This document shows positions 10,656 to 38,462 of a DNA stretch of 53,719 bases, one piece after another (position 1 is the first letter of the stretch; each line of letters starts with the position of its first letter). The DNA comes from Ignavibacteriales bacterium. Lineage in GTDB: Bacteria; Bacteroidota; Ignavibacteria; UBA10030. The notes beneath the pieces are model-generated. The model was not told the DNA's origin and did no database searches. It worked only from the letters and a program-made list of their open reading frames with translations. The position numbers and the translations under genes were made by a program. Where the stretch lies: positions 1 through 53,719 of the forward strand of contig JAPLFP010000345.1 in NCBI GenBank assembly GCA_026390585.1. The letters run 5' to 3'.

Positions 10656-12965
10656 ATGAACCGACGCGATGCCATCAGGCTTTTCGGCACATCTCTCGCA
10701 ACCTTGCCGCTGTCCAAGATTAGATCATTTGAGTACAAGGATTTTGTTTTCGATGACGATGCGATGGATCAATTGGACCGATTGAAGTCAGAACCCGCAT
10801 GCCGTTGCGAGGTGCGGATGGAGCGCGGTGGCGCGCGCCTCTTCCTGAACGGGAAAGAAGAATATCCCCTCCTTGCCGTGAGCTCGAGCCTGCTCCACAC
10901 CGCGCCAAGCTATCGGAAGGCCGGCATAAAATTCTTGCATCCTCTGATCGGCCTAGAGGACGGTTGGATTGGTCCTGGCAAGTATGACTGGGAACGGTTC
11001 GACAAGTATTTTGCGAAACTGCTGGAGCTCGTTCCCGACGCCTTCCTCTTGCCACGCCTCCACCCCTACGCTCCGGAGTGGTGGAAAGAATCTCACCCGA
11101 ATGAACTTGTGAAATGCGGCCTACCCATTGACGCCGGCCAATATAAGGCACCCGCGCAGATCATCGAAGGAGGATTCAACTGGACGTCATTGGGTGATCC
11201 GTATGCGGCATCGTTCGCATCGGAAATCTGGAAGAAAGAAACCATCGAGATGCTCAGGAATTTTCTCCGCCACATGGAGGCGTCACCGCTTAAAAGTAGA
11301 ATGATGGGATACCAAATTTCCGGGATGCATACCGGCGAGTGGCACTATATCGGATGCCGATGGATGCCGGACTACAGTGCCCCCATGGAGAAAATCGCCG
11401 GCCCGATTCCGTCAACGGAAAGAAGAATCAACAAGGGTGGGCCGCTGATGCGCGACCCGGAAAAGGATCGCGACATCATTGAGTTCTACAGAAAATATCA
11501 CATGAACACAGCAGAGACGGTGGCATTGTTTGGGAAGGTTATTAAAGAAGAGACAGAGCGGCGGGTGATCTGCGGTACGTTCTTCTGCTATGTTCTGGAG
11601 AATGTGATGATCCAGGAGGCGGGACATCTGGTGCCGGAGCCGGTCCTTCGATCGCCCGACTTCGACTACATAGCAACTCCGTATACCTATCAGCGAAGCA
11701 ACGTGCCTGGCCGCCAACGGTGGGACAGCGACGTGATTGACGATGCGGGCAATTGGCTTGGACGTGCGCGGGGAGTCGGGGGCGACGGTGCCTATAGGGT
11801 TCTGAGTGAATCCATTCGTCGGAACAACAAGATGTTTATTTCTGAAATGGATCCGAGCACATACCTTGAGCCCTATAGAAGAAGCGAAGGTGGCTCTGGT
11901 TCGGAGACCGTTGAAGGGACGCTCAAAATCCTTCAGCGCGATCTTGGGCAGGTATTTGCCACAGGTCATGCCGGCTGGTTGTTCGACTTCGGTCATCTCA
12001 GTCCCCCCTTCAAGGCAAACAGAGGTTGGTACGATGACCCACCGATGATCAAGGTGATCAAGTCGTTCGCGGAACTCGGCAGCACAAATCGACACAGACT
12101 CGACATCAGTCCGGTGTCAGAAATTGCCGCGGTCTACGAACCGAAGTCATGGATGGCCACCGAACATTGGTGGGCCGAAGAACCGTGGAACAATTTCGGC
12201 ATTGTGATCAGCGATTTCTTCGGTCATTGGGTTGTCAACTCACAAGCGAGGACGATCAACCGCGTCGGCGCCCCGACGGATTTTCTATACAGGTTTGATT
12301 TGAAGCCCGAAGATCGCTCGCGGTTTAAACTCTTCCTAATGGTCAACACGTTCTTTCTTATAGCGGAAGAAGTGAAACAGCTGCAGAACCTCTTCAAAGG
12401 AAGTGGCGCTACGGTTGTCTGGTTCTACGCTCCGGGATACATCGGCCCGGACCGCTTCGAACCGAAACAAATGGAAGTTTTGACAGGGTTTTCCTTCAAG
12501 CGCATCGATGAGCCGGGGCCGATGATGATTCGATGCTTGATCGACGATTCGGGGACGAAGTTCTTCAGGGACTTTGGCGTCAAGAAGCCGCACTATCCGC
12601 GGTTCGCGGTGGTGCAGGGGGAGAAGGATGGAGTGCGTGTGCACGGTCAGTGGACGGACAACGGAGAAATAGCGTTTGCGAGTAAGGAGCACGACGGCTT
12701 CACATCGTTCTATGCGGGGACGGGCCCGTTGCCGGTCGAGGTAATCCGATGGATATCAACAAAGGCCGGTGTGAAGATGTGGAGCTCAAAATCGGACAAC
12801 GTCCGCGCATCGAAAGGTGCAGCCATGGTCGTTGCCTCCGATGACGGAGAGCGAACCGTCCGCTTTCCTGTCCCAATGGCTCCCATCGAGGGGGGCAATG
12901 CCAAGCGGGAGCATCGATTGACCATGGAGTTTGGAGAGGTGAGAGTGTTTATGCGAAAGAGCTAG
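10656..12965 (+). CDS. Putative glycoside hydrolase, GH42-like TIM barrel, possible Tat substrate
   Basis: A 769-residue protein. The N-terminus (NRRDAIRLFGTSLATLPLS) resembles a twin-arginine signal, though its hydrophobic stretch is short. Residues 55-400 read like a (beta/alpha)8 barrel of the GH42 beta-galactosidase kind: YDWERFDKYFAKLLE, LLPRLHPYAPEWWKE, then GYQISGMHTGEWHY with Glu228 as candidate acid/base and KMFISEMDPSTYL with Glu397 as candidate nucleophile. The C-terminal part (about 480-640) looks like the flavodoxin-like trimerisation domain of GH42 (FFLIAEEVKQLQNLFKGSGATVVWFYAPGY). Specificity cannot be read. AAGAAGG lies upstream of the ATG. It heads a run of exported carbohydrate-related genes on the same strand. 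Confidence 0.7.
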   Translation: MNRRDAIRLFGTSLATLPLSKIRSFEYKDFVFDDDAMDQLDRLKSEPACRCEVRMERGGARLFLNGKEEYPLLAVSSSLLHTAPSYRKAGIKFLHPLIGLEDGWIGPGKYDWERFDKYFAKLLELVPDAFLLPRLHPYAPEWWKESHPNELVKCGLPIDAGQYKAPAQIIEGGFNWTSLGDPYAASFASEIWKKETIEMLRNFLRHMEASPLKSRMMGYQISGMHTGEWHYIGCRWMPDYSAPMEKIAGPIPSTERRINKGGPLMRDPEKDRDIIEFYRKYHMNTAETVALFGKVIKEETERRVICGTFFCYVLENVMIQEAGHLVPEPVLRSPDFDYIATPYTYQRSNVPGRQRWDSDVIDDAGNWLGRARGVGGDGAYRVLSESIRRNNKMFISEMDPSTYLEPYRRSEGGSGSETVEGTLKILQRDLGQVFATGHAGWLFDFGHLSPPFKANRGWYDDPPMIKVIKSFAELGSTNRHRLDISPVSEIAAVYEPKSWMATEHWWAEEPWNNFGIVISDFFGHWVVNSQARTINRVGAPTDFLYRFDLKPEDRSRFKLFLMVNTFFLIAEEVKQLQNLFKGSGATVVWFYAPGYIGPDRFEPKQMEVLTGFSFKRIDEPGPMMIRCLIDDSGTKFFRDFGVKKPHYPRFAVVQGEKDGVRVHGQWTDNGEIAFASKEHDGFTSFYAGTGPLPVEVIRWISTKAGVKMWSSKSDNVRASKGAAMVVASDDGERTVRFPVPMAPIEGGNAKREHRLTMEFGEVRVFMRKS

Positions 12966-13924: not shown

Positions 13925-16231
13925 ATGAAGCGATCTCGTTTGATGCTTTCCTTCACAATTGCGTCTGTTATTGTCTTATCGGCACGTGCACAAGAGGGGG
14001 GCAGGGTCAGCGACGTTCTGAAACGCATTGTCACCCTGGAAATCCCTGCCTCGGGATATCCTGTCGAGCGCACCGTGGTCGAGGCAATGAAGAAAACCTT
14101 CGGTCAGACTGCTTCCGTTGTGGAAGTGCCGGCGGGTCAGGCGCTTCGGAAAGGATCGTTCCGTATCCAGGTCTTGCGCTCCGGCGCCGAAGCGTCTGCT
14201 GGTTGGTTTCGACTTCAGATGTCACAAGATGGGACCGGTGAGCTGACGGCATCGCACACTCACTTGCTGTATACGGCATTCTGCCGTGTCCGTGACGAAT
14301 GGGCCGACAACAAGGTCGAGGAGTTTGCACAAGGGCGAACCGCCTCGACACGCCTTCCGTGGCTGGAAGGAAACGACGGGATGTTCGCTTCCCTGCCCCG
14401 TTTCATTCGCAACTATGATCCGGAAGCGACAATCCAGGAGCTCGCGCGGCTTGGGTGCTCGCATGTGTCTGTCAACGTTCTTGCATCTCCGACGGCGTAT
14501 GAAGAAGGACCTCCGGGAGAGATCTATCCACGTTTTTACGCCAGCAGCCCGGATCTTGATCAATTCGTAGTGAGCGACCTTACCCGTGGTCTGTACCCAC
14601 CCGAGTATCTTCAGGCAAATCTCGATCTTCTGAAAAAAAACGTTGCGCTCGCTCTTGCTTACGGTCTCACACCGGGCCTCACCATATGTTCACCGTGGAC
14701 CATGCCGGAGGCTTTCTTCACAAAGTACCCGTACCTGCGTGGAGCGCGAGTTGACCATCCATATCGTAGCTATCGGCCACGCTATACCGCAACGCTCAGT
14801 CATCCGGTTGTCCGGTGGCACTACGCACAGCTGATGGTGGCGATGATGAAGGAAGTGCCGGAGCTTGGATATCTGTACTTGTGGACGAACGACAGCGGCT
14901 CGGGGTTCGAATATGTGTCGACACTCTATGCTGGCAGAAATGGCGGCGCATATCTCATCAGGGAGTGGAAATCTGATGAATCGATTGCCCGTGCAGCGGG
15001 TGAGAACGTTCTACGATACCTCCGCCTGTTGCGCGATGCTGCATCAGAAACCAACCCTCGCTTCCGCGTGATCACATCGGCATCCTGGTTTGGTGCTGAG
15101 CAGGATATTATTCTGGGGGGCCTGGGTGATCGATTGGACCTTTATGTTCAACCTGCTGATACGGCGAATGCGCGTCGCTGGCCTGTTCTTCGGGCTCTTG
15201 AGACCAAAGGATCTCAGTTATTTGGTGCCGCACGCGCTGCAACCAACTACATCCTCGGTGCTCCGTGTCCGTGGTTGAGTCGCGACAGACTCGAAGCCGC
15301 AATGAGCCCTGGCATACGACATGTTGCAGTGACATTTGATCCGCCGTCGCTCGCGCCATGGAGCATCAATAGAGAGATCATCCGCGCCTTTCAGTCTGAC
15401 ACGAAGCGCACGGTAGACGAAATTGTTGGGTCAACAGCACGGCGTTGGGCTGGGATCACCGAAGGCGAAATGCTCGTACGGGCATGGCGTCTCACCGATC
15501 AGGCTGTTCGCTCTTTTCCCGACATTCCTCTCTATGGCACCAGCTGGGCGTTTCCATTGTACCGGCATTGGGTGAGACCGTTCGTGCCGAATATTCTGGC
15601 AATTCCGGAGAACGAACGACGGTACTATGAGCAGCACATGATTGCCACGTTCAACAATCCTACGATGATAGACTTCGGTGCCGATGCGCTCTGGTTATTG
15701 ATCGACACGGCACAGGCGAACTCTATTGTCCGGACATGCGACTCACTGGTGTGGAAGCCTTTGGACGAGGCTCTTGCGGTTCTGGATGTCTCACTCAAAC
15801 GGCAGGCACAAAGCTCGAGCATACGCGACGTACTCCAGGATCAACGCAATCGTTTGCAGGGGTTGCGCTGTTATTTCCGAACACTGCGCAATATTGCCGG
15901 CTGGATCGCAAACGTGCGCGGGTATATGGCAGCATCTTCCCGGGGTGCGCAGATAGCGATGCTCTCATCGGTGCGCGCAACAATTGACGATGAGCTGAAG
16001 AATGCTGAAGACCTGCTCCGATTGTGGAACACGAGCCATACGAATTTCATGCCAGTAGCCTCACTTGGGGAAAACTGGGCTTTCTATGGGAGCAACCTTG
16101 GTGAGTTGTTACAAAAGAAAATCGATCTGATGAAGAAGCACCGCGAGGATATTCCGTTTATCGATCCGAACTTCATGTGGAGGATGGGGGCTGAATGTCC
16201 CGTGCCACCAGCCGAATATCTAAAGTATTGA
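13925..16231 (+). CDS. Exported protein with glucuronidase/hexosaminidase-like N-domain and predicted barrel
   Basis: A 768-residue exported protein. The signal peptide is residues 1-22 (KRSRLMLSFTIASVIVLSARAQ). Residues 30-125 look like the small alpha/beta domain that precedes the catalytic barrel in GH67, GH20 and GH84 enzymes (VTLEIPASGYPVERTVVEAMK, then a strand-turn pattern with GTGELTASHTHLLYTAF). Residues 150-450 read as a TIM barrel (RNYDPEATIQELARLGCSHVSVN, LALAYGLTPGLTICSPW, GYLYLWTNDSGSGFEY, ASWFGAEQDIILGG). An acidic pair near WTNDSGSGFE is a candidate active site, but I cannot assign a family. The C-terminal third is mostly helical. The start at 13925 follows GGAGG; the ATG at 13877 with CAGGAGG is also possible but gives a long polar leader. 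First gene of a tight operon. Confidence 0.7.
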   Translation: MKRSRLMLSFTIASVIVLSARAQEGGRVSDVLKRIVTLEIPASGYPVERTVVEAMKKTFGQTASVVEVPAGQALRKGSFRIQVLRSGAEASAGWFRLQMSQDGTGELTASHTHLLYTAFCRVRDEWADNKVEEFAQGRTASTRLPWLEGNDGMFASLPRFIRNYDPEATIQELARLGCSHVSVNVLASPTAYEEGPPGEIYPRFYASSPDLDQFVVSDLTRGLYPPEYLQANLDLLKKNVALALAYGLTPGLTICSPWTMPEAFFTKYPYLRGARVDHPYRSYRPRYTATLSHPVVRWHYAQLMVAMMKEVPELGYLYLWTNDSGSGFEYVSTLYAGRNGGAYLIREWKSDESIARAAGENVLRYLRLLRDAASETNPRFRVITSASWFGAEQDIILGGLGDRLDLYVQPADTANARRWPVLRALETKGSQLFGAARAATNYILGAPCPWLSRDRLEAAMSPGIRHVAVTFDPPSLAPWSINREIIRAFQSDTKRTVDEIVGSTARRWAGITEGEMLVRAWRLTDQAVRSFPDIPLYGTSWAFPLYRHWVRPFVPNILAIPENERRYYEQHMIATFNNPTMIDFGADALWLLIDTAQANSIVRTCDSLVWKPLDEALAVLDVSLKRQAQSSSIRDVLQDQRNRLQGLRCYFRTLRNIAGWIANVRGYMAASSRGAQIAMLSSVRATIDDELKNAEDLLRLWNTSHTNFMPVASLGENWAFYGSNLGELLQKKIDLMKKHREDIPFIDPNFMWRMGAECPVPPAEYLKY

Positions 16232-16257
16232 ACAGAAGTGTTTCCGGAGATTGTCTC

Positions 16258-18021
16258 ATGCGACGACCTGTGTTCATTATGGTATTCCTGGTCACCCTCG
16301 GCAGTCTGTACGCAATGGCCGACGATGGCGTATTTGAAGCCCGGCAGCGCCGGTTTCTGGAGGTTGTGAGCAGAGAACCGGGCGTGAGTATCCACAGTCT
16401 TGCGGCGAAATTTGCCGTAGGCCGAGATATTCAAAGAGCCATGATGGAGTTTGACTCTGCCATCGGGTCGTTTCATGGCTACACGCTGATGGGGACCTTC
16501 CTTCGCTTCCGTTCCATCCTTCCGGATTCAACGCGCGGGAAGGTGAGGGATATCTTCCGGTCGAGGGGTTTGTACCGGGGAGACACCGAGAACCATTGGG
16601 TCATGCATTATGCGGGTCTGTATCTTGCAGCGCAGACCTGGCCACACGAGGACGGAACACAATGGTTCAATGGACGCAGCTCGGATGAAAACTTCCGCGA
16701 CGCAAAAGAGTGGCTCAATCACTGGATGACGGTTGCGACCACCATCGGCCAGGGGGAGTTCGACTCGCCCACCTACATGCCGGCTTTCCTTGCGCCCATG
16801 CTTGTGCTGTACGATTGTGCAACTGATCCGGCCATGAAAACAAAAGCGCAGATGATGTGCGATCTCCTCCTCGCCGACTTCGCTGTGGAGCACCTGCACG
16901 GCAACTACGGCGGAGGCCACAGCCGTGATTATCCCGCAGACATTATCAATCCTCTGGCAGCACAGACAACGCGGGTCTTGTGGCTTTACTTTGGCGAACC
17001 AAAACGAGAAACTTGGGAAGAAGCAAACTTCCTGCCGAGGGTCCGCAGTTCGTGGGAAAGCGTGTTCGCGGCATTGAGCACATATCGCATGCCCGACATC
17101 ATTCTTCACATAGCCACAGACCGATCCACACCCTATGTTCAGCGCGAGCGCAAACGGGTGCGCAACGTCATGCGCTTTGGGGACGAACTCAATCCTCCCG
17201 CGTACAAATACTCCTACATAACAGAAGATTACATCCTTGGATCTTTACAGGGAGGAGTCCTGGAGCCTTTCCAGCAACACACATGGGATGTCACGTTTGT
17301 TTCCGAAAAACCGAACAATACAATCTTCACGCTGCACCCCTATTACTCGAGCCGCCAGCTTGGGATGTTCTTCCCCGAAGAGCTCAACGTTCTTGCACAG
17401 GACGTGGACCGGTACAAGCTTGTGTACACAAGCCCGGACAAATGGAACTCCAGCTCGCCATATGAACAAACGTTTCAAAACAAGAACATCATTATCGTTC
17501 TCTATAATATTGCACCCGGAGCGCACCACCCCCACATTGATGGATTCTTTCCAAAGACGCTTGATGCCCGCACGGTAGATTCAACGGGTTGGATCTTCTG
17601 TCGAGGTGGAAACACCGCTATCGCATTCTATCCTCTGAAACCGTATGAGTGGATTAATGAAGAGAAGAACTGGAGGTTGCGGAGTCATGATCTGAAGAAC
17701 GGCGCTGTTGTCGAGATCGCGTCGATCCACACTGTTGCAAACTATGACGAATTCACACGCCGTATGCGCTCGCAACGGGTGGAATCGAAGGACTTCGAGC
17801 GCACATTGACGGTGACATATCTATCGCTCAGAGGGGACACGCTGACTTTTACGTACGACGGTCTCCGGCTGCTGAACGGCAAAACTGTGGATCTGGCAAA
17901 GACCAGGTTCTATGATGGGCCATTTATGTCGGCCGAAGTCGGCGCCGGGATCATCGAACTTCGCTACCGGGATCGCGTCAGGATCCTTGATTTTCAGAAA
18001 GGAAGGATCACTGAGCGATGA
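16258..18021 (+). CDS. Exported protein, probable alpha/alpha-toroid (lyase- or hydrolase-like)
   Basis: A 587-residue exported protein. The signal peptide is about residues 1-21 (RRPVFIMVFLVTLGSLYAMA). The first half is rich in aromatic, paired helices (NHWVMHYAGLYLAAQTWP, AKEWLNHWMTV, YMPAFLAPMLVLYDCA), as in alpha/alpha toroids of polysaccharide lyases and unsaturated-sugar hydrolases. A GNYGGGHSRDY segment follows near residue 220. The second half looks like a beta-sandwich with GAHHPHIDGFF, a His-rich loop comparable in style to heparinase II/III lyases. I do not recognise the exact family, and catalysis is inference. It starts 26 bases after the preceding stop; its stop overlaps the next start (ATGA). 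Confidence 0.65.
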   Translation: MRRPVFIMVFLVTLGSLYAMADDGVFEARQRRFLEVVSREPGVSIHSLAAKFAVGRDIQRAMMEFDSAIGSFHGYTLMGTFLRFRSILPDSTRGKVRDIFRSRGLYRGDTENHWVMHYAGLYLAAQTWPHEDGTQWFNGRSSDENFRDAKEWLNHWMTVATTIGQGEFDSPTYMPAFLAPMLVLYDCATDPAMKTKAQMMCDLLLADFAVEHLHGNYGGGHSRDYPADIINPLAAQTTRVLWLYFGEPKRETWEEANFLPRVRSSWESVFAALSTYRMPDIILHIATDRSTPYVQRERKRVRNVMRFGDELNPPAYKYSYITEDYILGSLQGGVLEPFQQHTWDVTFVSEKPNNTIFTLHPYYSSRQLGMFFPEELNVLAQDVDRYKLVYTSPDKWNSSSPYEQTFQNKNIIIVLYNIAPGAHHPHIDGFFPKTLDARTVDSTGWIFCRGGNTAIAFYPLKPYEWINEEKNWRLRSHDLKNGAVVEIASIHTVANYDEFTRRMRSQRVESKDFERTLTVTYLSLRGDTLTFTYDGLRLLNGKTVDLAKTRFYDGPFMSAEVGAGIIELRYRDRVRILDFQKGRITER

Positions 18022-19067
18022 TTCCTCTAAGCCGGATATACTCGAAAGGCGCATCTCTGTTGAGGTCGAGACTATATATCAGCATTGTGTTGCTGGCTTT
18101 TCTTACCGATGGAGCGGTCGCGCAGCGTGAGGTCATCTACATGGCGGTGTTAAGCTCTTTTCGCCCCAGGGACAAGGGCGATAGTACACCAGCCGCCGGA
18201 CTTTTTGTGAGCACCGACCAAGGACACACCTGGCAGCACCGTGGTTGGCATGACTACATACGCGACTTCTATTCTGAGGAGGGGAGCGATGGCACAATCT
18301 GGTCTGCCTGCGGGAATGGCGTCCTCCGCTCGACCGACGCGGGCAAGACATGGCGAATCACGACCGACTGGAAAGTGACAGAGGTGCTCAAGGTCAAGGC
18401 CGCGGAGATGGATCCAGCGGTAGTTTTTGCTTCGACCGCGTACGGCATTATTCGAAGCACCAACAAAGGGGTTTCATGGGAGAAGAAGGTTCTGGGCATG
18501 CGACGCGCTTACTCGGGGGATGTTTGCATCGACCGTACCGATCCACAACACGTTTTGGCTGCCACCGAGGATGGAGCCTACGTTAGCGAAGACTGTGGAG
18601 AGCGATGGGTTGCTGCAGATCTCACCGCGAAGGGAGTGCGTGTCGTTGTACAGGACCCACATGATGCAAAACGATTCTGGATCGGGACAGAAGAAGACGG
18701 GGTGTTTTGTTCCCAGGATGGCGGGCGGCGATGGGAGCAGCGTTCGACAGGCCTGGATCATAGAACCGTCTACACGATTACTGTGCATCCCCAGAAGAAA
18801 AATTGGCTCTACGCAGGTACATTTGGTGGAGGAGTGTACCTGAGCACCGACGGAGGCGCCCACTGGGAGAGGCGCTCCCGCGGCCTTACGGATCTTCAGG
18901 TACATGCTATTGTTGTACTTCCTTCCGATCCCCGCATCGTGCTTGCTGGAACGCTGAACAAAGGGCTGTTCCGAAGTATCGACGGCGGAGAGACGTGGCA
19001 ATTCAACTCTCACGATGATGCGCAGGTGTGGGGACTGTCTGTCCGGTCGATCAAGGCGGGTAAATAG
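18018..19067 (+). CDS. Exported seven-repeat Asp-box beta-propeller protein
   Basis: A 349-residue protein that starts inside the stop codon of the previous gene (ATGA overlap), so translational coupling is likely. A signal-anchor or signal peptide ends near residue 36 (ISIVLLAFLTDGAVAQ). Seven Asp-boxes are visible: STDQGHTW, STDAGKTW, STNKGVSW, SEDCGERW, SQDGGRRW, STDGGAHW and SIDGGETW. This fits a complete propeller of the sialidase/Vps10/xyloglucanase superfamily. Unlike the window's other propeller (5557-6867) it has no T9SS tail, so it is probably periplasmic. Catalytic residues of GH33 or GH74 were not identified. Third gene of the operon; a glycan-binding or hydrolytic role is inferred from position. 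Confidence 0.78.
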   Translation: MIPLSRIYSKGASLLRSRLYISIVLLAFLTDGAVAQREVIYMAVLSSFRPRDKGDSTPAAGLFVSTDQGHTWQHRGWHDYIRDFYSEEGSDGTIWSACGNGVLRSTDAGKTWRITTDWKVTEVLKVKAAEMDPAVVFASTAYGIIRSTNKGVSWEKKVLGMRRAYSGDVCIDRTDPQHVLAATEDGAYVSEDCGERWVAADLTAKGVRVVVQDPHDAKRFWIGTEEDGVFCSQDGGRRWEQRSTGLDHRTVYTITVHPQKKNWLYAGTFGGGVYLSTDGGAHWERRSRGLTDLQVHAIVVLPSDPRIVLAGTLNKGLFRSIDGGETWQFNSHDDAQVWGLSVRSIKAGK

Positions 19068-19547
19068 AGCGTTGATCGACGAGTGCGTTACCGCACGACA
19101 ACGTTGAAGTTCATTGCACCTCAACGCAAATTTGCTTTTCTTTTAGCCGACGAGCATAAACCATATTGCTGCCGATCATGCAAGGTTTACGCTCACGATG
19201 GCGGACAATTCAACTGGAGTACACCACATGGTTGACGTTGCATTCAGGCGCGGGGAGCGCCGATTCGCCGCATCATCCCCCTTCTCATTCCCGGATCTTT
19301 CGGATCTCGTTCATCCATCTGCCGATACACTCCATATTGCGATTTGGCGTCGGCAATCGAGGAACAGGAACAGTCAATGTGCGCCTTGAAGACGGGCAGA
19401 CCGTTGAATCCGTTTGTCAAAGCGTCCAGATGAAAGCCGGAGAATTGATACAGACGAGGAAACCCTTGCTGGCGAAATAGAAAGCTTCCAAACGCAGCAC
19501 AAGTATTCTTTTCATGGAATAATATAATCATGATGATGGGGGGATCC
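19068..19547. other. Intergenic region with degraded T9SS tail
   Basis: Nearly 480 bases between the propeller gene and the next cargo gene. It contains the tail remnant listed at 19401-19480. No intact gene is seen; the open frames present are short and mutually overlapping. Confidence 0.5.
19401..19480 (+). pseudogene. Remnant of a T9SS C-terminal sorting domain
   Basis: The stretch ends in an open frame reading QMKAGELIQTRKPLLAK and a TAG stop, almost identical in style to the ends of the intact cargo proteins here (QAGDVIQTKKMILMK, SSGGIVETRKLVLAK). Just upstream, in another frame, is PLNPFVKAS, resembling the NPFNPST motif at the start of such a domain. The usual 70 residues between the two parts are missing. 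I read this as a decayed cargo gene; short similarity by chance cannot be excluded. Confidence 0.4.
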
Positions 19548-21461
19548 ATGCACACACGCTTGGCTATGACCACCGCGATCTTGATGTTGGTGCGTTTCGC
19601 ACCCGCATATTCCCAGGATTGCCAGGACTGCAAGAATCGACGAGTCACTTTGTATGACAACGAAGTGAACGTTCCGCGCCCGTCGGCAAATCCCGATTCC
19701 ATCTATCGGTATTGGGACTATTTTTTTATCGCTGGCGGAGTTAAAGAGTATTTGGCGAACACCGATCCAACGCGCGATTGCATCAGGAGGCTTGACGGAG
19801 CATTCTTTACAAAGAAGGATACCGTCACGAGCAACATCAAGTTTGGCCTCGAACACGCAAACCTTCCACCCCCCGGGGAAGCACCAGGATCTCCGGATTA
19901 CCTGCTCTACGGTGTGGTGACCGCGCAATCCTTCACACTGATGCTCGAAACCGGCAAGACGCGAGAGCTTGTCAAGTCTGGTGTCATCGCTCTTCCTGCA
20001 GGATTCGACCCATTCCAGATTGGGAGAACCGTTGCAGCGTTTGTGGGTCCGTTGTATACGACGATTATGGATTTCGAAAGAAGGAAGAGAGACCAGGGGG
20101 AGCCGTATGCAATTCAGCCGAAGATTACGCTGATTCCCGGAACGGCGAAGCTCAAGGTTAACGAAAAGACAAACATTGATGTTGTGTTCAAAGATTGCGA
20201 TGGTGCGCCATTGAAACAGCGTCACATCACATTTACCGCAGATGGTGGTACGCTGAAGAGCGCTGATGTCACGACGGACGATCAAGGACGCGGGACGCTG
20301 GAGTTTACTGCCGGACCTGTCCCGGCGCTCGCAACCGTGACCTCGGATTATCCCTACCAACAGCCCGCAGGATACATGTCTGCGATAAGCGCGGAACCAG
20401 CGTCCATTCAGATTGACAAACCCAGCACTTCTTGGTTCGCTGCGGGGACATTTGCAATTGACAACGTGACAAATCTTCAATCAAGCGGTGCCTTCGAAAC
20501 AAAAACAGGAGGGGGAAACGACGGAACAACTATCTCGTTCAGCGCATGGGTGACCAATATGAGTCCTATCCCAGGGCAGTTTTCGTCGACATGGTTGACC
20601 ACAACCCAACTGAAATATGCCGGGAGCTATCATGAGTCGTACTATGAGCATTCGCACATGGAAGTGTCTGCCGGAGGAGTGTTCGCTATGATCGACGACC
20701 AGCTGACCAATATCGTTAATGCTACCTCGACCAATACCAGAACACCGGACCTCACGATCAGCATCTACAAAAACTCGTATAATATCAGCATTCAGCAGAT
20801 GGATGCGGTACAAACAGGTGGAGAAACAACTACGCGGGTCTCTGTCGACCCAATCGCCGGCCGCAAAACAGACACGCAGGTCACGCCCGCCTCCCCCAAG
20901 AAATCGATGGGACTGTCCGTGGGGGGAGTAAACAGGGACACGGTCTATTCTAACGTTGAAACAACGGATTTTGGGGATGGGAGAATAACGAAAACCGTGA
21001 CCCAGGTAACGCAACAATTTTCCTGGAAGGACAACGTCTGCAAACTTACGTACATCCGGGGAATCAGAGAAGATTCCCAGATGAGGAGTAATTATAATGA
21101 GGATACATATTCGAACCAAACGTTCCGAGTGACATTCCTGCTGTCGTACACCGGTGATCCTCCGACGTGGGTCGAGGCACCCGAGCAAAATGTGCCGACG
21201 AAATTTGTCCTTGGACAAAATTATCCTAACCCATTCAATCCGAGCACAACGATTTCGTACAACCTTCCTCAAACAACGCATGCGACGTTGGCCATCACCG
21301 ATCTTCTCGGGAGAAAAATAACGACTCTCGTTGACGAGGTGAGACCAGCCGGTCTTCATATGATGCAATGGAATGCAAGCGGATTGCCCAGCGGTGTGTA
21401 TTTTCTTCGCATGAGCTCCGGTGGAATTGTAGAAACCCGGAAACTGGTGCTAGCGAAATAG
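19548..21461 (+). CDS. Secreted protein with Ig-like domain and type IX secretion tail
   Basis: A 637-residue exported protein. The signal peptide is about residues 1-23 (HTRLAMTTAILMLVRFAPAYSQ). A bacterial Ig-like (Big_1) domain lies near 205-275 (TLIPGTAKLKVNEKTNIDVV, ITFTADGGTLKSADVTTDDQ, GRGTLEFTAG). The tail of about 85 residues is a T9SS sorting domain: QNYPNPFNPSTTISYNL, ITDLLGRKITTLVDEV, SGVYFLRMSSGG and KLVLAK. The middle (280-540) is Thr/Ser-rich and not recognised. An ATG at 19530 in frame is possible, but the ATG at 19548, preceded by a G-rich stretch, gives a standard signal peptide. It is followed by a terminator-like hairpin. Confidence 0.85.
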   Translation: MHTRLAMTTAILMLVRFAPAYSQDCQDCKNRRVTLYDNEVNVPRPSANPDSIYRYWDYFFIAGGVKEYLANTDPTRDCIRRLDGAFFTKKDTVTSNIKFGLEHANLPPPGEAPGSPDYLLYGVVTAQSFTLMLETGKTRELVKSGVIALPAGFDPFQIGRTVAAFVGPLYTTIMDFERRKRDQGEPYAIQPKITLIPGTAKLKVNEKTNIDVVFKDCDGAPLKQRHITFTADGGTLKSADVTTDDQGRGTLEFTAGPVPALATVTSDYPYQQPAGYMSAISAEPASIQIDKPSTSWFAAGTFAIDNVTNLQSSGAFETKTGGGNDGTTISFSAWVTNMSPIPGQFSSTWLTTTQLKYAGSYHESYYEHSHMEVSAGGVFAMIDDQLTNIVNATSTNTRTPDLTISIYKNSYNISIQQMDAVQTGGETTTRVSVDPIAGRKTDTQVTPASPKKSMGLSVGGVNRDTVYSNVETTDFGDGRITKTVTQVTQQFSWKDNVCKLTYIRGIREDSQMRSNYNEDTYSNQTFRVTFLLSYTGDPPTWVEAPEQNVPTKFVLGQNYPNPFNPSTTISYNLPQTTHATLAITDLLGRKITTLVDEVRPAGLHMMQWNASGLPSGVYFLRMSSGGIVETRKLVLAK

Positions 21462-35226: not shown

Positions 35227-35874
35227 ATGCACCGAGCACTATCATCATATTCTGCGATCCGACGTCGGGTGCGATGGCTAAATCGGCTTCCCGCACTCCT
35301 TTGTGTCGCACTCATTCTTGCATTGAGCCTTTCGTGTAACGAGTCGCTTCCGCCGTACGATATTCCCTCCACTCTCTTTACAGGTGTCATCCGTCCGCGG
35401 TTTGTGAACAGCAAAGGAACTCACTTATGGGTTCTCCTCACGGTACAGAATACGTTTGACGAAACACTCCAGGACGCCGCAAGCCTGGTTGGAAATTTGG
35501 AAATCGTCCTTGCACGAGACCCGAGTATCCACAAGACCGTTACACTAGATTCCAGAAGCCTCCTCTACCATTTCAATGGCCTGCTGGGCTATCCCAACTA
35601 TGCGAACGTTCCATCCATCGATCAACGGGGTATCCTCACGATCAACAGCAAAGACTCGGTGTGCTTTTTCTATGACTGGACCTTTGTGAGCGATGATAGT
35701 CTGTATCTTCCGACGCAGGTGTTTCACATGCACGAAGATCCAAAGTATCCCGGCCACTTCATCGCGGACCCGGAGACATTTATTCTGAAGGGGTACGTGC
35801 AGGTGTTTACCAGAACCGGTCTCGTCATATTCGAACCTGTAAATTACGTTTTGAACTACGACTCGCCATCATGA
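35227..35874 (+). CDS. Lipoprotein paired with a TonB-dependent receptor
   Basis: A 215-residue protein with a lipoprotein signal: a basic N-terminus, the hydrophobic ALLCVALILAL, then lipobox LSLSC near residue 37. The mature part looks like a beta-sandwich (LWVLLTVQNTFDETLQDAASLVGNLEIV, then a strand-rich C-terminus). It is not SusD: too short and without TPR helices. The start is uncertain. The ATG at 35227 has AGGAG only one base upstream; a GTG near 35270 is an alternative. Upstream in-frame sequence is repeat DNA. The stop overlaps the receptor start (ATGA), so the two are translationally coupled and the lipoprotein may work as the receptor's surface or periplasmic partner. Confidence 0.65.
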   Translation: MHRALSSYSAIRRRVRWLNRLPALLCVALILALSLSCNESLPPYDIPSTLFTGVIRPRFVNSKGTHLWVLLTVQNTFDETLQDAASLVGNLEIVLARDPSIHKTVTLDSRSLLYHFNGLLGYPNYANVPSIDQRGILTINSKDSVCFFYDWTFVSDDSLYLPTQVFHMHEDPKYPGHFIADPETFILKGYVQVFTRTGLVIFEPVNYVLNYDSPS

Positions 35875-38462
35875 TGCGCGATGCTTCGATGCAGATGCTC
35901 CGTTTGAAATCCACCGTCTTCGCTCGTGTTCTGATCTCCGTTCAGATCTGCTGCGTCGCATTGCTTCTGTGGACAGGCTCAGCATTCGCGCGGCGAGGGA
36001 TCACCGGAATTCTGGAAGGAAGAGTGCGGGATAAACAAACGAAAGAATTGCTCCCGTCGGTTAATGTGATGATCGTCGGGTCGACTCTCGGGACCGCGAC
36101 GGATGAAAAAGGATATTTCCGCATCAGTAACATCCGCGCAGGCGATTACGATGTCCGCTTCAGCGTCATCGGCTACACCAGTGTCGTCATGAAAAAGGTG
36201 ACGATTCTGCCGGATCTTCGCACCCGGATCGAGGTCGATCTTGAGCCGAGCTCTGTGCAATTCCCGATCGTGGAAATTGTGGCAACGCGTCCATTGATAC
36301 AGGTTGACCAGGCGGCCACCGCCTTTCAAATTGAGCAAGGAAAACTTGATAAGCTTCCACTCACACAGTTTCAGGATATCGTAGGACTTCAACCGGGCAC
36401 GACGATGGAAGGGAACATCCGCGGTGGAAAGATCACCGACGCGCTCTATCTTGTTGACGGCCTGCCCATCCAGGATGTTATCAGAGGCGGAATCGGAACC
36501 AGCATTCCCAAGAGTTCCATCAGCAATATCACCATCACAACAGGGGGGCACGACGCAGAGTACGGAAACGCTCTGTCCGGCATCATCAATGTTGTGACGA
36601 AAAGCGGAGAGAACAAACACACTGTCATCACCAGAATTGAACGCGATGACTGGGTACCCCAATGGGCTGACAAGCAGATCGATCAGAGCCTCGAAGGCGA
36701 GGTTACAGCGAGCGGACCCGTCATTGTCAACAAATTGTATTATTTCAGCGCCAACATCGGTGCCGTCAGCGGTACACGATGGTGGCAGGATTTTCAGCAC
36801 TTTTTCACGCTTCCCATCAAAAGTGAATTCAGCGGCTTGAGCAAGCTTGAGTATCTTTTCTCCCCGACTCTCAGGCTTGGGTTACAAGGCATCTATTCCA
36901 TCCAGGACTGGCACGACTATGAGTACAGCTGGCGCTTCAATCTCAACGGGCTCCCGAAGGAAACAAAAACCTCATATCGTTTAGCGCTCACCCTGTCAAA
37001 GACCATTTCGAACAATGCGTTCTTCACGGTATCGGCGAGTACGTTCTACAACCAATCGCGTATTAACGAGGGATCAAAGGAAGAAATGACGTTGTTGCCC
37101 TACGCATACGATTTGTATCTGCGCTATGTCATCAGCGGATCGCGAAACTGGTGGGAAAACACACAACAGCACATTTATTCTCTCAAAGCAGATCTGACGT
37201 GGCAAGCCCACGGAAACCACCTGATCAAAGCCGGCTTTGTGGTCGATCAGTACGATATTGCATCCGATCTTGTCAAGTATGACCCGCAGATGACGTATTT
37301 CGGGAAGCCGATTGCCGGCGCTCCCATGCTCAACTACAGCAATTCATACAAGTATTACCCGCGGTCAGGAAGCGCCTACGTACAAGACAAAATTCAGATC
37401 ATTGAAGAAGGATCGAATATCAGCTTCGGCCTGCGATGGGATTTCTTCGACCCGACAGCCGAACGGCCGGTTGTCGAGTTTATTCCGATAAGCAAAACTG
37501 ACTATACACAGAACGTAACTGGAAAGGTCCGAGCTTCGCTGAAACAACAATTGAGCCCGAGAATTTCGTTGGCGCTTCCTGTCAATCCAACCACGTTTTT
37601 CTTTCTCAACTTCGGTCAATATTTTCAGTTCCCGATGTTTGATTATCTCTATTCAGGCTTGAATCCCGTTCAGCTGAAACTCGGCACGAAGAACGTGCAG
37701 GCAGGAAACGCCGACCTTCAGCCGGAAAGTCTTGTGATGTGGGAGATTGGATACAAGCAGACGATTCGTGAAGACCTGGTTGCCTCCCTGACGTATTTCA
37801 GGAAGGACATGAAGAACCAGGTTGACATCAAGACGCTGGTGCCGTTTGACAGCAAAGCTGCCGGAGATTATGGTTTCGCGTCGTACGTCAACAATGCAGC
37901 GGGAGATGCCCACGGTTTGGAAATCATTGTCAGCCGGGAAAGGAATGAACGGCTTTCGGGTTCGATCTCGTATACCTATATGGTGACGGAGGCCACCAGT
38001 GAATATGTCGATCAAAACCTGAACATCGCCCAGTGGGGTTTCAAGCTTGCGCCGGCGTCGTATCCGCTGAGCTGGGACCAGCGGCACACAGTCAAGGCAG
38101 ATATTGATTTCAAAATTCTTGGAGATATTCAATCGAATATTGTCATTCTCTACAACTCTCCCAGGCCGTACACATATTACCCCACGCGGGATGGATTCAC
38201 TCCGCTGGATACCAGCAAAGCTTTTGTTCCGAACAATGCGCGCATGAGTGATTTTTTGAACGTCGATTGGAAAGTCAGCAAATCTTTTCCACTCAAGGGA
38301 ATAAACGCACTCGTGACGTTGTACGCGGATGTCCGGAATCTCTTCAACCGGCAAAACGTGAAATGGATGGACTCGCAGGGAAAGATCGGGGGAGAGCTTG
38401 GCGATCCGGGAGCGTATTACAATCCCCGGAGAGCGAGGGTTGGGATTAGAGTGGATTTGTAG
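35871..38462 (+). CDS. TonB-dependent outer-membrane receptor with carboxypeptidase-like N-domain
   Basis: An 863-residue outer-membrane protein. The signal peptide is about residues 12-40. A carboxypeptidase-regulatory-like domain (about 47-120) starts GILEGRVRDKQTKELLPSVN and runs through GYFRISNIRAGDYDVRFSVIG. The plug (about 145-245) has LPLTQFQDIVGLQPGT, ALYLVDGLPIQD and GHDAEYGNALSGIINVVTKSG. A 22-strand barrel follows and ends in RRARVGIRVDL. It imports large substrates using TonB energy. No TonB, ExbB or ExbD gene is in the window. It lies in an overlapping pair with a small lipoprotein, not SusD, and ends before a strong terminator. The substrate is unknown. Confidence 0.9.
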   Translation: MMRDASMQMLRLKSTVFARVLISVQICCVALLLWTGSAFARRGITGILEGRVRDKQTKELLPSVNVMIVGSTLGTATDEKGYFRISNIRAGDYDVRFSVIGYTSVVMKKVTILPDLRTRIEVDLEPSSVQFPIVEIVATRPLIQVDQAATAFQIEQGKLDKLPLTQFQDIVGLQPGTTMEGNIRGGKITDALYLVDGLPIQDVIRGGIGTSIPKSSISNITITTGGHDAEYGNALSGIINVVTKSGENKHTVITRIERDDWVPQWADKQIDQSLEGEVTASGPVIVNKLYYFSANIGAVSGTRWWQDFQHFFTLPIKSEFSGLSKLEYLFSPTLRLGLQGIYSIQDWHDYEYSWRFNLNGLPKETKTSYRLALTLSKTISNNAFFTVSASTFYNQSRINEGSKEEMTLLPYAYDLYLRYVISGSRNWWENTQQHIYSLKADLTWQAHGNHLIKAGFVVDQYDIASDLVKYDPQMTYFGKPIAGAPMLNYSNSYKYYPRSGSAYVQDKIQIIEEGSNISFGLRWDFFDPTAERPVVEFIPISKTDYTQNVTGKVRASLKQQLSPRISLALPVNPTTFFFLNFGQYFQFPMFDYLYSGLNPVQLKLGTKNVQAGNADLQPESLVMWEIGYKQTIREDLVASLTYFRKDMKNQVDIKTLVPFDSKAAGDYGFASYVNNAAGDAHGLEIIVSRERNERLSGSISYTYMVTEATSEYVDQNLNIAQWGFKLAPASYPLSWDQRHTVKADIDFKILGDIQSNIVILYNSPRPYTYYPTRDGFTPLDTSKAFVPNNARMSDFLNVDWKVSKSFPLKGINALVTLYADVRNLFNRQNVKWMDSQGKIGGELGDPGAYYNPRRARVGIRVDL

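Follow-up and report, generated by a model that had tools for sequence, protein, structure and literature searches.

What might three closely packed genes for exported proteins, two of them outside any family recognised by sequence, accomplish together in an Ignavibacteriales bacterium? The genes, here named P0001, P0002 and P0003, lie on the forward strand of contig JAPLFP010000345.1, in a stretch of 53,719 nucleotides that was analysed as a whole (the window, whose positions are used throughout). In our best explanation, to which we give roughly an even chance, the trio is an exported cassette that saccharifies an acidic glycan, with P0002 as lyase, P0003 as binding propeller and P0001 as uronidase-like hydrolase, and its substrate is probably O-methylated. 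The original prediction, made from the sequence alone, had described a tight operon for the stepwise breakdown of an acidic or branched glycan.

Layout of the gene trio

The following three genes make up the trio:

13925..16231, + strand: P0001, 768 amino acids, start MKRSRLMLSFTIASVIVLSARAQ; exported three-domain protein with a fold like those of glycoside hydrolase (GH) families GH138, GH67, GH89 and GH115
16258..18021, + strand: P0002, 587 amino acids, start MRRPVFIMVFLVTLGSLYAMAD; exported alpha/alpha toroid and beta-sandwich protein, predicted polysaccharide lyase (PL)
18018..19067, + strand: P0003, 349 amino acids; exported seven-blade Asp-box (BNR/Sortilin-type) beta-propeller

All three genes are read from the same strand. 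P0001 and P0002 are separated by 26 bases (16232-16257), and P0002 and P0003 share the four bases ATGA, so that the extent of 13925-19067, the gap and the overlap are as originally predicted. A Sec-type signal peptide was recognised at the N-terminus of each protein by reading of the sequence and a crude hydrophobicity test. None of them carries a tail of the type IX secretion system (T9SS); the sole such tail nearby is a Por_Secre_tail on the gene at 19530-21461, directly downstream of the trio. Export without a T9SS tail had likewise been anticipated. Because relatives of 45-75% identity are present in 28-29 of 100 related genomes, the trio is more than a chance arrangement, and it is confirmed as real and not an artefact. 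Gene layout, predicted folds, conservation, the coupling of toroid and propeller and the linkage to methyl-transfer genes were all computed directly.

The toroid protein P0002

The AlphaFold model of P0002 (predicted local distance difference test score, pLDDT, 92.1; predicted template-modelling score, pTM, 0.91) combines an alpha/alpha toroid with an antiparallel beta-sandwich, the fold of the PL8, PL12, PL15, PL17, PL21, PL33 and PL35 lyases. Foldseek gave 15 matches at E <= 0.001, every one a uronate polysaccharide lyase; they include GAGases VII and II (PL35), Atu3025 (PL15), HepC, hyaluronate and chondroitin lyases (PL8), Alg17c (PL17), BT4410 (PL33) and an apo chondroitinase. VIA Z values of about 9-10 were obtained over residues 21-550. 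At the sequence level, the 77 family members have no Pfam match save two single-member chance matches, and P0002 itself has no match in NCBIfam and none among PDB sequences by phmmer or profile search.

Conservation among the 77 members singles out four candidate sites:

16591..16596, + strand: N112-H113 (motif GDTENHW), proposed carboxylate neutraliser and base, 77/77
16774..16776, + strand: Y173 (motif GQGEFDSPTY), proposed catalytic tyrosine, 77/77
17278..17280, + strand: H341 (motif QQHTW), proposed histidine partner of the tyrosine, 70/77
17533..17544, + strand: HIDG (426-429) within GAHHPHIDGFF, possible metal or substrate site, H426 in 71/77 and D428 in 58/77

Asn, Tyr and His form the catalytic set common to lyases of the toroid/beta-sandwich fold, as described for PL35 and PL33 enzymes (PMC12088678, PMC11848413). 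In lyases with the order Asn, Tyr, His, the residue numbers given there place Asn and Tyr 53-57 residues apart and Tyr and His 130-166 apart. The corresponding distances in P0002, 61 and 168, are slightly longer. The roles suggested for N112, H113, Y173 and H341 thus rest on residue order and approximate spacing, compared with the published table, and P0002 would on these grounds be a lyase of an uncatalogued family.

Compared with the toroid uronate lyases as a group (PL8, PL12, PL15, PL17, PL21, PL33, PL35 and PL39), P0002 shares, in its model, the two-domain fold across residues 21-550, and its candidate Asn/His and Tyr residues, invariant in its family, stand in the corresponding order, with a nearly invariant His. 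It differs from them in that its family has no sequence match to PDB chains or Pfam and no significant profile match to Hepar_II_III proteins, and in having a propeller partner. The GAHHPHIDGFF segment, which the original prediction had assigned to a toroid protein, does belong to one and sits inside the lyase-type beta-sandwich of the model. We discarded its HxHxD pattern (H424-P-H426-I-D428) as a heparinase-type motif, since position 424 varies among homologues.

The propeller protein P0003 and its coupling to the toroid

P0003 contains seven Asp-box tryptophans with a period of about 42 residues (W72, 112, 154, 197, 239, 283 and 327). Its Pfam scores place it among the BNR/Sortilin-type propellers (Sortilin-Vps10, 80.2 bits against a cut-off of 33; BNR, 55.6 bits against 27), and it stays outside the NCBIfam model NF045728 (F510_1955 glycosylhydrolase), with 141 bits against a cut-off of 175. 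Like the Asp-box/Sortilin/Ycf48-type propellers and the F510_1955 family, P0003 has seven Asp-box blades; unlike them, it falls under the NF045728 cut-off and is tied to a lyase-like toroid partner.

A survey of public genomes (Ignavibacteria, KSB1, Calditrichota, Rhodothermia and others) yielded 92 toroids in 76 loci, and 73 of these toroids have a propeller either adjacent or fused. Natural fusions occur in both orders, propeller-toroid at L085:7813-10596 and toroid-propeller at L088:1203-3941. This adjacency and the two-way fusions are the strongest signs that toroid and propeller form one working unit, and we propose from these gene arrangements that P0003 is a binding partner of P0002. 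Conserved acidic residues on successive blades of P0003, E122 (98%), E184 (91%) and E225 (85%), could bind a ligand or a metal.

The barrel protein P0001

The model of P0001, built with nine sequences, has a pLDDT of 75.8. After the signal peptide it comprises a predicted alpha/beta N-domain (about residues 30-126), a TIM barrel (about 143-492) and a helical C-terminal domain. The best fold match is the GH138 structure 6hzg (Foldseek E 1.5e-13; VIA Z 16.4, root-mean-square deviation 4.8 over 573 residues), followed by GH89, GH115, GH67 and GH20C at VIA Z of about 14-15, within about two units of GH138. The domain order of N-domain, TIM barrel and helical C-terminal domain is that of GH138 (BT0997), of the GH67 and GH115 alpha-uronidases, of GH89 and of GH20C. 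In contrast to this likeness, identity to these families is only 9-12%. P0001 therefore shows the three-domain fold of GH138 with no sequence relation to the founding member (PDB 6hzg), and an attempt to reach GH138 by way of a remote barrel relative gave no link. No match to P0001 was obtained in Pfam or NCBIfam, nor among PDB sequences by phmmer or profile search; the 19 family members have no Pfam match beyond single-member chance matches. Profile alignments of the family by hhalign with GH67 (E 0.44) and GH89 (E 0.086) were non-significant.

One segment of the barrel stands out:

14888..14899, + strand: N322-D323-S324-G325 (NDSG), after barrel strand 4, with D323 as proposed catalytic acid

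D323 is invariant down to relatives as distant as about 20% identity, which differ at E329, E347 and E392, and the segment aligns with NSEG of GH67 and ADTF of GH89 in a statistically weak profile alignment. GH138 residue assignments were not found in the openly licensed literature. From the modelled fold and this conservation, P0001 is probably a uronidase-like glycoside hydrolase with D323 as its catalytic acid. Against this proposal, the model is of moderate quality, and its loop 328-350 near D323 falls below a pLDDT of 50. The exported form of the family was seen only in the window copy and its two closest orthologues (71-75% identical). By the crude test, most other members have no clear Sec signal, and the exported form may therefore have a different role.

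Two remote barrel relatives of about 20% identity (L191:2005-3924 and L192:1345-3552) keep NDSGGG, have lost several other conserved acids and belong to no known family. Downstream of an orphan exported barrel of 71% identity, heterodisulfide-reductase-like genes were read at L071:11751-18021; they were not used as evidence.

The structure prediction and fold search originally suggested for all three products were run for P0001 and P0002, and they returned a GH138/GH67-type barrel and a PL8/12/15/17/21/33/35-type toroid. The predicted domain style is borne out: P0001 has a uronidase-type N-domain with a TIM barrel, and P0003 is a seven-blade Asp-box propeller. The refutation originally named, strong matches to described families or a lack of conserved gene order, did not come about, as no strong match to a described family was found and part of the gene order is conserved.

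Recurrence across genomes

Of the 100 related genomes, 28 have the P0001 family, 29 the P0002 family and 27 both (Fisher p 6e-21, a value overstated by the relatedness of the genomes). Conservation of gene order is partial. All three genes occur again in this order in one other species (L070/L072), and URO-D and Pterin_bind genes come next on that strand (L070:1-1876, - strand), a possible corrinoid-to-folate methyl-transfer pair. In L109, an orthologous toroid (90% identical) and propeller are continued by the genes that start the large locus described below, for a methionine-synthase-like protein, a barrel, URO-D and a six-hairpin-like protein. L127, L129 and L136 have toroid and barrel separated by a URO-D gene.

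In a broader set of 39 further barrel-gene stretches, 30 contain a methyl-transfer gene; of 20 control stretches, each of 16 kb, 2 do so (Fisher p 9e-7, without correction for relatedness).

A paralogous locus of about 72 kb

On another contig of the same genome (G000, C56:5539-77536, covered by L054-L057) we found a one-directional locus of about 72 kb and some 48 genes that holds paralogues of all three proteins: two barrels, two toroids and three propellers. Conservation of this locus extends to the three further genomes read (G003, G071 and G036). By Pfam, its products include a TonB receptor, ABC and SSF transporters, a heparinase II/III protein, GH38 and GH3 enzymes, sugar-acid enzymes (including a sugar-acid dehydratase), an FAA hydrolase and a glycerate kinase, along with a nucleotidyl transferase and a GHMP kinase. 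A methyl-transfer set is also present, with two URO-D proteins, a B12-binding protein, MtaB and others; the first barrel is followed after 52 bases by a URO-D gene, and the second is preceded by MtaB with 89 bases in between. By reading, the locus starts (L054:5539-12152) with genes for the TonB receptor, for a large exported protein whose C-terminus resembles a sorting tail and for an outer-membrane protein similar to PorV. The barrel gene at L054:12650 and the heparinase II/III gene at L055:15466 carry a Tat-like leader of 36 residues, MTMRPSRRKFLNTAALTMAGVALAPR, that is almost the same in both and looks copied.

Two known systems invite comparison. As in the SusC/SusD polysaccharide utilisation loci of Bacteroidota, exported carbohydrate-active proteins are clustered, with a TonB receptor in the paralogous locus; in contrast to those loci, SusD was found neither at the trio nor among the annotated genes of the large locus. 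The large locus also resembles the MtaB/MtaC/MtaA methanol:corrinoid systems in having URO-D, B12-binding and MtaB genes directly upstream of a barrel. It differs from them in that these genes stand beside glycan-degrading genes, and no annotated pectin esterase was present among the locus genes scanned.

Proposed function and alternative explanations

From this material we infer enzyme activities, residue roles, a P0002-P0003 complex and a substrate. P0002 would cleave the chain next to a uronic acid by beta-elimination, using N112/H113, Y173 and probably H341. P0003 would pair with it physically and bind or present the glycan, holding the lyase to it, and P0001, as an exo-acting, alpha-uronidase-like member of the GH67/GH89/GH115/GH138 structural group, would trim the fragment ends. 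The products would then be imported and processed by functions like those of the large locus, including methyl removal via corrinoid and folate carriers; the trio would be an extracytoplasmic offshoot of that catabolic locus. An acidic glycan is supported indirectly, as the significant toroid matches are uronate lyases and the best barrel matches include alpha-uronidases. O-methyl groups on the substrate are suggested by the methyl-transfer genes of the large locus; set against this, the window trio itself has no adjoining methyl-transfer gene.

P0002 could, instead of a lyase, be a uronate C5-epimerase or a glycoside hydrolase on a toroid/sandwich scaffold, with E111 and E167 as catalytic residues or with the Tyr/His set but no cutting of the chain, which we consider rather unlikely. 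Human dermatan sulfate epimerase 1 (6hzn, Z 9.6) and the GH154 beta-galactosidase (8oi4, Z 8.5) are among the fold matches, showing that the scaffold also serves such enzymes, and E111 and E167, which a hydrolase could use, are likewise invariant among the 77 homologues. TM-scores against the lyases are only 0.2-0.4 in Foldseek, with large root-mean-square deviations, and VIA Z values are tied among many families. Low TM-scores, tied values and these two matches mean that the fold alone cannot fix the reaction. Hepar_II_III_C (PF07940) matches 0/77 members, and a further point against a lyase is that hhalign with a heparinase II/III-type alignment was non-significant (E 0.19). On the other side, every Foldseek match at the threshold is a lyase, and the N, H and Y residues are invariant in lyase order. 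Seven-blade propellers comprise hydrolases as well as lyases, and the conserved acids on successive blades of P0003 would suit a catalytic propeller, a glycosidase or lyase, with three enzymes acting in sequence and no complex. That arrangement appears unlikely, given that conservation in P0003 is strongest at the structural Asp-box positions and that the two fusions and the 73 of 92 toroids with an adjacent or fused propeller favour a partnership, though the partner may itself be catalytic.

A different destination for the cassette was also weighed. The immediate neighbourhood of the trio lacks a SusC/SusD pair, a sulfatase and a dedicated outer-membrane importer, and the large locus has a nucleotidyl transferase and a GHMP kinase; on these grounds, the trio could remodel or recycle the cell's own surface glycan or exopolysaccharide instead of acting on food glycans. 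The catabolic character of the large locus, from the TonB receptor at its start to its sugar transporters, sugar-acid dehydratase, FAA hydrolase and glycerate kinase, makes this very unlikely. Returning to the saccharification cassette, we put forward one extension of it as a tentative and rather doubtful idea, namely that trio and large locus are together dedicated to the anaerobic breakdown of O-methylated acidic glycans. The lyase-propeller pair and the uronidase-like family would release methylated uronic or other sugars, and the MtaB, B12-binding, URO-D, MetE-like and Pterin_bind proteins, as cytoplasmic corrinoid/folate methyltransferases, would remove and use the methyl groups. Speculatively, elimination at a 4-O-methyl uronosyl residue itself might free methanol, which would account for MtaB.

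Neighbouring genes

The gene at 10656-12965, described originally as a GH42-like enzyme preceding the trio, has no Pfam family at E <= 5. We judged it separate and outside the unit: 959 bases holding an open reading frame of 160 amino acids part it from P0001, and in seven other genomes the 1.5-kb flanks fetched around its orthologues contain none of the trio genes. The expected lack of a SusC/SusD pair next to the trio was found, and the whole genome gave one weak SusD_RagB match only, on another contig. A TonB receptor is encoded at 35871-38462. More generally, 24475-53372 is rich in exported or carbohydrate-active genes, with a Tricorn-type protease, a regulator propeller, GH38, the TonB receptor and alpha-L-fucosidase-like, GH116 and GH3 genes.

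Significance

Taken as a whole, the original interpretation stands in part: its domain style was upheld, its acidic glycan has indirect support, and the link to the GH42-like gene was not supported. It did not contain the toroid and propeller as the strongest conserved unit, the paralogues in a giant locus or the methyl-transfer genes as recurrent partners of the barrel. By Pfam, NCBIfam, PDB and fold comparison, P0001 and P0002 are assignable to no described family, though CAZy was not compared and an unlisted or very recent family may cover them; no paper on such a locus was found in the openly licensed literature. What we describe are new families built on folds already known, set in an unusual genomic neighbourhood.

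The locus points to two uncatalogued families of carbohydrate-active proteins with testable active sites, and a conserved partnership of a lyase-like protein with a propeller that occurs even as fusions. It also suggests that, in Ignavibacteria and related phyla, the degradation of glycans is recurrently tied to methyl transfer by corrinoid/folate systems. If that tie is functional, it would provide a genetic handle on the anaerobic use of O-methylated sugars from plant, algal and microbial polysaccharides.

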